A stretch of DNA of 64,000 nucleotides, from NCBI RefSeq assembly GCF_019668485.1, contig NZ_AP024619.1, positions 1,363,001-1,427,000 on the forward strand, written 5' to 3'. Each line of letters opens with the position of its first letter. Position 1 is the stretch's first letter. Source of the stretch: Gelria sp. Kuro-4 (GTDB lineage Bacteria > Bacillota > DTU030 > DUMP01). This document shows, in pieces, positions 42,863 to 48,916 of this stretch. The position numbers and the translations under genes were made by a program. The notes under the pieces are model-generated. The model ran no database searches, was not told the DNA's origin, and saw only the letters and a program-made list of their open reading frames with translations.

Positions 42863-44692
42863 TCACTCCAGGAAGTTCACCAGATCGCGTCCGACGATGG
42901 GCGCGCCGGCTCTGGTGCTGCCGTGGAGCCAGAGGTCGGTGTAGCAGGCGGGGGAAATGAGTTTAAGGAGGGGTGGGAGCTCGAAGGTGAGGGTGAGGTC
43001 GGGGTCGCCGTCACCGTTGACGTCTTTGAGGGCGCTGCTCTTGGCCGGTACCCAGGTGTTGGGGTTGCGGTAGGCAGGGCCGAGGGTGAGCGTGGCGGGG
43101 TCGATGTTCTTGGCAGAAAGTTCACCGGAGCTGATGATATTCACCTGCAGCGTGCCGGTCTCGCTCAGGCGCACGGCTTCACGCGGGATGTCAACTTTCA
43201 TTGTGGGGAGTTCGCCGATGAGTTCCTTGGCTTGCTGCCAGGCCTTTTGGGCCAGGCTGTTGGTGTACTGGGTGAGGTAGGCGCGGCCGGCGGCTTCGTC
43301 CTTCGCCAAGAGGCGGCAGGCTTCCTTTTCCACTTCCGCTTGTTTGGCCAGGGCCTCTTCCTCGAAATCCTGCCAGGTTTTTTGTACCGTGCCGATGACG
43401 GAACCGTACTGGGCATCGACGATGTTTTCGAGATCCTGGAATGTCCACCAGGCCTTGGTGCGGTCGTAATCATAAAGGGCGGCGTGCGGCTTGAACTGGA
43501 GGGAGCCACCGACAGTGGGCTCGGCCCAGAAGTGGCCTTCAGGCACGGCGGTGATGCCCAGGTACCAGGGTACATAGGGGCTGGTGTCCGGGCGACCGCT
43601 GGTGCGCCAGCAGACAGCCTTGAGAGCGGCCGGTACGTTATCTCTTAGCTGCGTCACGGAGCTTTCGCGCGTGGTGCTGGTGCAGATGACGCGTTCGTCC
43701 GTCCAGTGCGGCGAAGTCTTGTAGCCATCGGTTTTGTCGTAGGGCGTGCCCTCGTAGTGGTTGCGCAGGATGTTCATTACGTCACGGACGCCGACTTTCT
43801 CAGCAGGTTTGACCGCGAAGGGGAGGGGACCCTCGGGCGTTTTGCCAGTGAGCAGCTTCTGGCCGATCCACTGGCGGGTGTCGTAGCCGCGTTCCAGCGC
43901 CTTACCCTGGGCGGGAGCGGAGTAGGCCTCGGCAAAATCAAAGGGTTTGCCGCTCTTCGGGTCGTACCAGCCGCGCTCGATGGCGTAGTCGATGATATCG
44001 GGGGAAGCGATGAAGTTCTTCTTGTCCTTGAGGTTAACTTCGCGGATGACATAATGGTTGGGAATGACGACGGCCATGTCATCGGGTACCCGCTGGGCTG
44101 CGTAGTGTTTGCCGCGGACCAGGTGGAGCACCCAGGCCTCCTTGCCATCGGCGATGTGGTAGGAGCGGCCGGGCGCAATGTAGCCGAACTCTTCCACCAG
44201 CTTGGCTGCGATTTCCACGCCTTCGCGGGCGGTGCGGGCGCGTTCGGCTACAATCCGTCGGATGTGGTAACCGATGCCGCCGTCGGTGATATCGCCGCGT
44301 GCGACGAGGTCTTCATACGTGTCTTCCCTGGTAGGACCGCAGTTGTCGCTGCAGACCACCACGCCCCACTCGTTGACGAAGAAGTCGCTGAAGGAGCCGC
44401 CCGGTGTCTGCGACCAGAGGAAGGCCCAGGTTTCCGGCACCTGGGGGGTGGTGCCGCCGTTTTCAAAGCGGATCACCTCGCCGGGCTCGTGCTTCATACG
44501 GGGTACATAGTACTGGGGCATGACGATGCGACCGCCGTTGTCCTCGTTGTGGCCGACCAGAAGCGAGCCGTCTATCGTGGCCTTGCTTCCCACAAGCACT
44601 GTGGTGCAGTCGGCCAGGGCGGGTGGGGCGATGAGGACCAACACCAAGAGGGTTGCAACGAGAGCCGTTCCCAGCCTGTGCTTGCTCGCCAT
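42863..44692 (-). CDS. Secreted dipeptidase, peptidase family C69
   Basis: The protein has 609 residues from ATG 44692 after AAGGAG. A signal peptide (residues 1-28, ending ALA-D) leaves Cys29 near the new N-terminus, as expected for C69 proteases, which use an N-terminal cysteine nucleophile. DGSLLVGHNEDNG, WGVVVCSDNCGPTRED and GRSYHIADGKEAWVLH match the PepD/C69 core. The C-terminal 100 residues include DVNGDGDPDLTLTF, a calcium-binding-like loop in a small beta domain, which may anchor or stabilise it outside the cell. It should hydrolyse dipeptides in the envelope. A minus-strand promoter at 44984-45012 may drive it. Confidence 0.9.
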   Translation of the reverse strand: MASKHRLGTALVATLLVLVLIAPPALADCTTVLVGSKATIDGSLLVGHNEDNGGRIVMPQYYVPRMKHEPGEVIRFENGGTTPQVPETWAFLWSQTPGGSFSDFFVNEWGVVVCSDNCGPTREDTYEDLVARGDITDGGIGYHIRRIVAERARTAREGVEIAAKLVEEFGYIAPGRSYHIADGKEAWVLHLVRGKHYAAQRVPDDMAVVIPNHYVIREVNLKDKKNFIASPDIIDYAIERGWYDPKSGKPFDFAEAYSAPAQGKALERGYDTRQWIGQKLLTGKTPEGPLPFAVKPAEKVGVRDVMNILRNHYEGTPYDKTDGYKTSPHWTDERVICTSTTRESSVTQLRDNVPAALKAVCWRTSGRPDTSPYVPWYLGITAVPEGHFWAEPTVGGSLQFKPHAALYDYDRTKAWWTFQDLENIVDAQYGSVIGTVQKTWQDFEEEALAKQAEVEKEACRLLAKDEAAGRAYLTQYTNSLAQKAWQQAKELIGELPTMKVDIPREAVRLSETGTLQVNIISSGELSAKNIDPATLTLGPAYRNPNTWVPAKSSALKDVNGDGDPDLTLTFELPPLLKLISPACYTDLWLHGSTRAGAPIVGRDLVNFLE

Positions 44693-47287: not shown

Positions 47288-47428
47288 ATGTTCCGGCGCA
47301 ATCGCCTTGGCCTGGCACTGCTCACAGCCGGGGTCGTCCTCGTTGCTCTGGGCCTACTCCGGGGCGAAGCGGAAGCCGTGTTCGAGAAGGCGGCCAGCCT
47401 GTGCCTCGAGTGCATCGGGATCGGTTAG
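47288..47428 (+). CDS. Small CxxC membrane peptide (CD1871A-like), first gene of the redox cassette
   Basis: This 46-residue gene starts at ATG 47288 with AAGGAGC upstream. It has a single membrane segment (residues 7-24, LGLALLTAGVVLVALGLL), a short polar helix and an ending of SLCLECIGIG. The C-terminal C-x-x-C and the LECIGIG tail match the small CD1871A-type CXXC proteins of clostridia. The next gene begins eleven bases later, so it is the first gene of a three-gene unit with the polyferredoxin and the TlpA-like protein. The cysteine pair may be a redox partner or metal site; its function is not known to me. Confidence 0.8.
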   Translation: MFRRNRLGLALLTAGVVLVALGLLRGEAEAVFEKAASLCLECIGIG

Positions 47429-47439
47429 GAGGTGAAAGC

Positions 47440-48288
47440 GTGCGCCGTCGCCTCGTACAGGCTCTTTCCGCCCTCCTGGCCAACGCCAACCTGCCCGGGT
47501 TTATTGAGGGGCGGATCTACCAGGGCCGCCTAAAGTCGGTCTGCGCTCCCTTTCTCAACTGCTATTCCTGCCCGGGGGCGCTGGGTGCCTGCCCCGTGGG
47601 CTCTTTCCAGTCCCTGGCGGCCGGCTTCAGCCACACCGCTTCGCTTTATGTGCTGGGTTTCTTGACGGCCGTGGGGGCGGCCGGAGGCCGCTTCGTTTGC
47701 GGCTGGCTCTGCCCGTTTGGTTTCATTCAAGAGCTCCTGCACCGCCTGAGCCCACGCCGCTGGGCCTTACCGCGTGTCCTGGAATACCTCAAATGGCCGG
47801 TACTGCTTCTTACGGTGTTGCTGCCCTTCTATTGGCGGGATGCCGTGGGGCTGGCTGAACCATACTACTGCAAATACGTCTGCCCCGCCGGCACCCTGGA
47901 AGCCGGGCTACCGCTCGTCGGCCGGCGCACAGAGCTGGCCGCGTTGGTGGGGCCTTTGTTCTTTCTCAAAGTGGGTATCTTGGCGGTGCTGGTGGCAGCC
48001 GCTGTGTTCGTCTGGCGGCCCTTCTGCCGCACCCTCTGTCCTTTGGGCGCTTTTTACGGTCTCTTCAACCGGGTGAGCCTCTTCCGGCTCCAGGTGGACG
48101 GTGCCCGCTGCACTTCCTGCGGCGCCTGTGCCCGGCGTTGCCCGGCCGGGCTCAAGCCACACCGCGATTCCAACCCCTCTGCCTGCGTGCGCTGCCTGGA
48201 GTGCACCCAGGCCTGTCCAACCCAGGCCCTCACCTTTGGCAGCGGGGCAAAGGCCCCTGCCTTTACTCCAGCCGCGAAGGAGGCGTGA
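47440..48288 (+). CDS. Membrane 4Fe-4S protein (NapH/CcoG-like polyferredoxin)
   Basis: The protein has about 282 residues from GTG 47440 after AGGAGGTG. It has four to five membrane segments. Cytoplasmic cysteine motifs are C-x3-C pairs in FVCGWLCPFGF, YYCKYVCPAG and FCRTLCPLGAF, and a C-terminal two-cluster ferredoxin (CTSCGACARRCP and CVRCLECTQACP). An extra N-terminal cluster of cysteines (C35, C41, C44, C51, in the segment around NCYSCPG) is also present. NapH-type proteins pass electrons between the membrane or cytoplasm and outer partners. Here the partner is likely the TlpA-like lipoprotein encoded four bases downstream. Confidence 0.9.
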   Translation: MRRRLVQALSALLANANLPGFIEGRIYQGRLKSVCAPFLNCYSCPGALGACPVGSFQSLAAGFSHTASLYVLGFLTAVGAAGGRFVCGWLCPFGFIQELLHRLSPRRWALPRVLEYLKWPVLLLTVLLPFYWRDAVGLAEPYYCKYVCPAGTLEAGLPLVGRRTELAALVGPLFFLKVGILAVLVAAAVFVWRPFCRTLCPLGAFYGLFNRVSLFRLQVDGARCTSCGACARRCPAGLKPHRDSNPSACVRCLECTQACPTQALTFGSGAKAPAFTPAAKEA

Positions 48289-48292
48289 AATA

Positions 48293-48916
48293 ATGCACTG
48301 GCGAGCCAAACTCATTTGCACCGGCGCTCTCGCCCTGCTTCTCGCCCTTGTTCTTGCCGGCTGCCGGGTACCCTGGAAACCGGGGGGGCAAGGTGCAGGT
48401 TTGCAGCCGCCGGAGGTGACCACACCCGCCCCCGCGCCGGTAGAGCAACCCGCGGCAGAGGCTCCGGTAAGCCCGCCCCAGCCGGCGGTGGGCGTGGAGG
48501 CCCTGGCCTTTAGGGGTGAGGAACTGACCACGGGAGATGAAATCTCTTTCCCCTCGGCGTCCGCCGGCCGGGTGGCGGTCCTCAGCTTCTTCTCCCCCGG
48601 CTGAAGCTTCTGCGTGCGCGAGGTGCTGCAGTTGCAGCCGGAACTTCCTAAACTGAAAGAGCAGGGACTGGACTTTTACATCATCGCTGCGGGTAGCGAA
48701 CGGGACCTAAGGGCTTTCTTCGGCCGTACCAAGCTGGAGGCGACGGTTGTTTGGGATAAGAAGCTGGACATCTTCCGCACTTACGAGGTGGACGGCATCC
48801 CGGCCAGCTTCTTCGTCGACAGGAAGGGGAAAATCCGCGACCAGCGCCTGGGCTGGACTTCCAGTTCCCTCACAGAGTTTAAGAGCACCGTGAAGCTACT
48901 GAGCGAAGAGAAGTAG
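48293..48916 (+). CDS. Selenocysteine-containing TlpA-like thioredoxin-fold lipoprotein
   Basis: Read through an in-frame TGA at 48602-48604, the frame runs from ATG 48293 to TAG at 48914-48916 and gives 207 residues with Sec at 104. The signal peptide ends in a lipobox, VLAGC (C24), followed by a Pro-rich linker and then the TlpA/AhpC-TSA fold. VAVLSFFSPG precedes U104-S-F-C107, replacing the CxxC of thioredoxin-like proteins by UxxC. The cis-Pro region (VDGIPASFFVDRKGKI) lies far behind the TGA, so the downstream part is still under selection for this fold. A hairpin follows the TGA. Read as a stop, the TGA would leave a 103-residue protein without its active site. The expected role is reduction of disulfides or peroxides outside the membrane, fed by the polyferredoxin. 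Confidence 0.85.
48602..48634 (+). promoter_or_regulatory. UGA selenocysteine codon with candidate bacterial SECIS hairpin
   Basis: Behind the TGA, CTGC (48610-48613) can pair with GCAG (48628-48631), and inside it GC (48616-48617) with GC (48625-48626), leaving the loop GCGAGGT. The GGT starts 18 bases after the TGA, in the range where bacterial SECIS loops place their G/U residues. The stem is modest, and I fitted it by eye. Confidence 0.5.

Follow-up and report, generated by a model that had tools for sequence, protein, structure and literature searches.

A probable selenocysteine-containing TlpA/ResA-type lipoprotein encoded beside a NapH-like polyferredoxin in Gelria sp. Kuro-4

The window, the whole stretch of 64,000 nucleotides of the Gelria sp. 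Kuro-4 genome that was analysed, carries on its forward strand a two-gene unit whose second gene (48293-48916) encodes a TlpA/ResA-like lipoprotein of 207 aa with UGA, almost certainly read as selenocysteine (Sec), at codon 104. We consider it probable that the product is a Sec-dependent thiol reductase of the TlpA/ResA type, re-reduced by the membrane polyferredoxin encoded with it. The Sec coding, a SECIS hairpin, the fold class, the lipobox, the gene pairing and a negative association with CcdA are all indicated by comparative sequence analysis.

Reading frame, domain and conservation of the UGA codon

Translation of the window from the ATG at 48293 to the TAG at 48914-48916 gives a single frame whose only TGA lies at 48602-48604, with 103 codons between it and the stop. 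The first-pass annotation had placed this TGA at the codon of the first cysteine of a CxxC motif and had seen no other interruption, in agreement with the active-site context FFSPG-U-SFC, in which the TGC at 48611-48613 encodes the putative resolving residue Cys107, invariant in the homologue alignment. A Shine-Dalgarno-like AAGGAGG (48277-48283) is found about 9 nt 5' of the ATG. The lipobox LVLAGC, also recognised earlier, ends in the A-G-C of 48356-48364; its predicted lipidated residue, Cys24 (48362-48364), is nearly invariant and an Lgt gene is present in the genome, which together place the domain outside the membrane as far as sequence motifs can tell. On the opposite strand of the window, positions 42863-44692 encode a protein of peptidase family C69 whose start resembles a signal peptide.

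The Pfam AhpC-TSA domain matches residues 67-183 across the TGA (E=1e-14), indicating that both halves belong to one domain and bearing out the earlier view that the C-terminal fold continues in frame with its cis-proline. The residue at this position, Pro170 (48800-48802), is invariant in the alignment. The predicted structure of the lipoprotein (pLDDT 86.9, and above 90 across the thioredoxin domain) is ResA-like, a thioredoxin fold with the CxxC equivalent and the cis-proline, and its nearest PDB folds are of the ResA type, Foldseek giving the Bacillus ResA-type entry 4nmu at E 1.7e-13 with TM 0.88-0.91 of target. In this prediction strand 94-100 leads into a helix that opens with residue 104, the place that the first cysteine of CxxC occupies in thioredoxins, and Pro170 precedes strand 171-175. 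The ResA model of NCBIfam (NF002854) scored the protein at 49 bits against a cut-off of 170, no NCBIfam model reached its cut-off for the lipoprotein, and a PHROGs search returned no match.

The TGA occurs at the same codon, always as UxxC, in 26 homologues across many Bacillota families. A search of 61 related genomes recovered homologues with a single TGA in the same genus, family and class and beyond, and independently assembled genomes with the same TGA encode proteins of 73, 65, 49, 48 and about 30% identity. Chance occurrence, and also a sequencing error, which had been named as a possible refutation, are excluded by this conservation of the codon in 26 sequences, independently assembled genomes among them. 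The matches in 398 Bacillota genomes divided into a TGA-bearing set of 17 genomes (E <1e-34) and a set of Cys ResA/TlpA proteins of the ordinary kind (E >1e-24), and a divergent Sec protein (L078, genome G130) lies between the two. This protein is ResA-like, with the context FWATT-U-PYC, one TGA and the hairpin CUGCAA-GUU-UUGCAG; its neighbour is a radical-SAM/SPASM-looking gene, and no polyferredoxin was seen beside it. Scanning of named genomes, seeded with the peptide LQLQ and hence biased toward Sec forms, also yielded Syntrophomonadaceae, Syntrophomonas wolfei subsp. methylbutyratica, Candidatus Desulfopertinax cowenii and others. One genome (G155) encodes two Sec TlpA paralogues (L071 and L103), only one of which was found adjoining a polyferredoxin.

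The alternation of U and C at residue 104, proposed as a check, was observed as well: a Cys orthologue inside the close group (L076, genome G323) has TGC at the Sec position and the same partner gene adjacent, and more distant polyferredoxin partners also carry Cys. The UGA is the only one within one conserved domain, and it is both conserved and exchanged with Cys codons.

The genome (2.88 Mb, one contig) encodes the Sec machinery for which a search had been suggested. A complete selA lies beside selB, which scores above its profile cut-off, the tRNA-Sec follows selB directly, and selD, also present, is interrupted in frame by a TGA as well. The selD TGA has the context SG-U-GAKLG (L039, about 1530), and downstream of it lies a hairpin with a GGU-type loop, CUCGCA-GGUGC-UGCGAG. 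A Sec-type TlpA was present in 22 genomes, and each of these also has either a SelB that passes the cut-off or a tRNA-Sec with a high score. Taken as sequence evidence, these data make Sec almost certainly the residue incorporated at codon 104.

The conserved SECIS hairpin

A SECIS element had been expected within 48602-48650, and a conserved hairpin, GCUGC-AGUU-GCAGC, was found there at 48625-48638 on the forward strand, with its loop at 48630-48633. The 5-bp stem, the AGUU loop and the distance of 25 nt from UGA to loop are the same in all 26 sequences, and the pairing is intact in every one of the 24 distinct sequences. Of these, 23 have G-C as the outer pair and L052 has C-G, the only compensatory double change that exists; pair 2 is C-G or U-G, and pair 3 is U-A except for a U-G in L103. 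Four U-G wobbles occur across the 24 distinct hairpins, and RNAalifold recovers the same hairpin unaided. When the family and class of the window's genome were left out of the training, a covariance model still scored 48602-48646 at 52 bits (E about 1e-14), and no other site in the window exceeded about 11 bits.

Codon choice under the hairpin is equally constrained. The leucine codon is TTG in 26 of 26 sequences, compared with 16% of leucines elsewhere in these genes, and the two CAG codons are kept in 26/26 and 25/26. The preceding codon has G at its third position in 25 of 26, even where the encoded residue is Val, Met, Leu or Ala; the one sequence that departs from this is that with the compensatory swap. 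Third positions vary at the nearby conserved codons Cys107, Glu110 and Pro116. The SECIS element appears to fix the peptide LQLQ next to the active site, which varies only where the base pairs stay; the peptide of L103, with its U-G pair, is LQLR. The hairpin is absent from the Cys orthologue L076.

The limits given for bSECIS elements in a passage of PMC13188914 are a loop of 3-9 nt, an upper stem of 4-16 bp, a G in the first two loop positions and a distance of 16-37 nt from the UGA, and the element lies within them, with a loop of 4 nt (AGUU, with GU at positions 2 and 3), a stem of 5 bp and 25 nt. The hairpin region folds at -8 kcal/mol, and the stability of the short hairpin is unexceptional. 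The minimum-energy fold of this region of the window is a longer competing stem that includes the UGA, which we rejected because it is not conserved in relatives. Since the fold of the window alone differs and the stability is ordinary, the case for the hairpin rests on its conservation. Rfam gave no family in the window and only chance matches in the region. At the DNA level, the UGA-hairpin pattern had 22 matches in viral contigs (L121-L142), all in short frames and none a selenoprotein, so the pattern alone is not evidence; many of these contigs share the short stretch kqq-U-D, which is not a selenoprotein frame.

The polyferredoxin partner and CcdA/DsbD

The first gene of the pair (47401-48288, forward strand) ends 4 nt upstream of the lipoprotein gene and encodes a NapH-like membrane polyferredoxin with two Fer4_5 and two Fer4 domains and CX3CP motifs that are invariant among its homologues. 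It scored 60.5 bits with the NapH model TIGR02163, below the cut-off of 213, and its predicted structure is poor (pLDDT 56), so that no topology can be taken from the model. The cysteines of the CX3CP motifs are needed for NapH function, and for RdhC, a relative of NapH, a thioredoxin-like disulphide is thought the likelier role (PMC5928378).

The constancy of this partner had escaped the first-pass annotation. The polyferredoxin adjoins the lipoprotein homologue in all 14 cases whose contig reaches far enough, and a TlpA/ResA-like gene, Sec or Cys, lies beside the polyferredoxin in 29 of 30 loci, in either order. Of these partners, those of eleven verified loci, one of them L076, have Cys; all others have Sec. 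Partners in four loci (L111, L114 and L119 of genomes G313, G354 and G392, and L115 of G159) belong to other TlpA subfamilies, with the TGA at the same first position of CxxC and different candidate hairpins. On a quick tree of the polyferredoxins the Sec/Cys label changed at least three times, two of the changes being forced by well-supported branches.

CcdA/DsbD is the usual electron donor of TlpA/ResA-type proteins. Among the 398 Bacillota genomes, CcdA/DsbD was found in 17 of 63 with the polyferredoxin versus 250 of 335 without it (p=2e-12), and by genus in 14 of 42 versus 176 of 224 (p=2e-8), relatedness being only partly corrected for. This anti-association suggests that the polyferredoxin is able to substitute for CcdA. 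The genome of the window and one other (G001) have both NapH-TlpA and CcdA, so replacement of CcdA is not general, and in the genome of the window the polyferredoxin and CcdA may serve different substrates. The CcdA-like gene of Gelria sp. Kuro-4 (L120, G000:C1 945551-946192) adjoins lgt and a cysteine desulfurase family gene (TIGR01977).

Proposed mechanism and comparison with known systems

According to the reading that we favour, the hairpin at 48625-48638 would direct SelB with Sec-tRNA to insert selenocysteine at the UGA (48602). The product would be a lipid-anchored extracytoplasmic TlpA/ResA-type thiol-disulphide reductase with the active site Sec-Ser-Phe-Cys, in which Sec104 would attack the substrate disulphide and Cys107 would resolve the intermediate. 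The oxidised lipoprotein would then be re-reduced by the NapH-like polyferredoxin, carrying electrons across the membrane from the quinol or ferredoxin pool, probably via the CX3CP thiols, and so performing the job that CcdA/DsbD does for other TlpA proteins, often in its place. Both the thiol relay and this direction of electron flow are inferred, as are the substrates, and we regard the polyferredoxin as more likely than not the reductant of the Sec lipoprotein. The wider proposal is evenly balanced in our judgement: that NapH-like polyferredoxin and TlpA form a transmembrane reducing route independent of CcdA/DsbD in anaerobic Bacillota, with an outer thioredoxin that has alternated between Cys and Sec on several occasions. 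The gene pair points to a possible second route for extracytoplasmic thiol reduction in anaerobes, by Fe-S carriers and not by CcdA.

The direction of service could also be the reverse, with the Sec TlpA keeping the exposed cysteines of NapH reduced or helping to load its Fe-S centres and receiving its own electrons from another reductant. Such a maintenance role fits the constant pairing, and the CX3CP cysteine mutations that break NapH (PMC5928378), equally well. Taken alone it leaves the depletion of the pair in genomes with CcdA unexplained, and we consider it unlikely.

Reduction of peroxides by the AhpC/TSA-type domain, as a Sec-dependent extracytoplasmic peroxidase with NapH as reductant, is suggested by the top Pfam match and by the frequency of Sec in such enzymes, since Sec is common in peroxidases. 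However, the peroxiredoxin motif PxxxTxxC/U is absent, the aligned members having FFS-x-x-UxxC (SPG-UxxC in the window protein), and the closest folds and profiles are ResA/StoA/DsbE reductases, which makes a peroxidase quite improbable. Termination at the UGA, leaving the downstream half dead or re-initiated at the start-like GTG at 48614, is still harder to reconcile with the data: the TGA and the entire downstream domain are kept over many families with constraint at synonymous sites, one would not expect function from half of a thioredoxin fold, and we judge an ordinary stop or pseudogene extremely improbable. That the UGA, evidently read through, specifies another amino acid by a code change or a suppressor is the least probable of all, because TGA serves as a normal stop codon in this genome, ending the gene directly upstream (48286-48288), the tRNA-Sec and the hairpin are present, and residue 104 is the catalytic Cys in relatives.

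Returning to the Sec-containing reductase, proteins of this general kind had been listed before, which the first-pass annotation missed: Sec-containing PF00578 UxxC Prx-like thiol:disulfide oxidoreductases appear in the relevant passages of PMC1794560 and PMC13188914. Like the window protein, they have the PF00578 domain and a UxxC motif in which Sec takes the first active-site position. In 2006 a 'distant Prx-like thiol:disulfide oxidoreductase' selenoprotein was attributed to Syntrophomonas wolfei (PMC1794560); a homologue of the window lipoprotein is encoded at a locus of an S. wolfei subspecies (L058), likely the same entry. In contrast to what we describe for the window gene, those passages of the two sources (PMC1794560, PMC13188914) mention no polyferredoxin partner, lipobox or hairpin. 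A literature search, with most subscription journals outside its scope, found no link of the Sec form to a polyferredoxin. UxxC Prx/TlpA-like selenoproteins are therefore known, and the coupling of a Sec TlpA-like form to a polyferredoxin appears to be unreported. Standard gene calling would split or truncate the lipoprotein gene in every carrier genome, and NCBIfam does not cover it.

A preprint on gut Clostridia describes, in the part relevant here, an operon of a 4Fe-4S ferredoxin, a TlpA and a CxxC-protein (PMC12637426), and the 4Fe-4S protein is always beside the TlpA disulphide reductase, as in our pair. That operon, of putative function, differs in having three genes, and selenocysteine is not mentioned in that part of the text. 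The upstream gene of the window shares Fer4_5, Fer4 and the CX3CP motifs with the NapH/MauN/NosR/RdhC membrane ferredoxins and differs from them by its thioredoxin partner, which takes the place of a nitrate reductase. With the Cys proteins ResA, StoA, TlpA and Etrx the lipoprotein has in common the fold, the membrane or lipid anchor, the position of CxxC and the cis-proline, whereas it has Sec for the first Cys and a NapH-like partner rather than CcdA.
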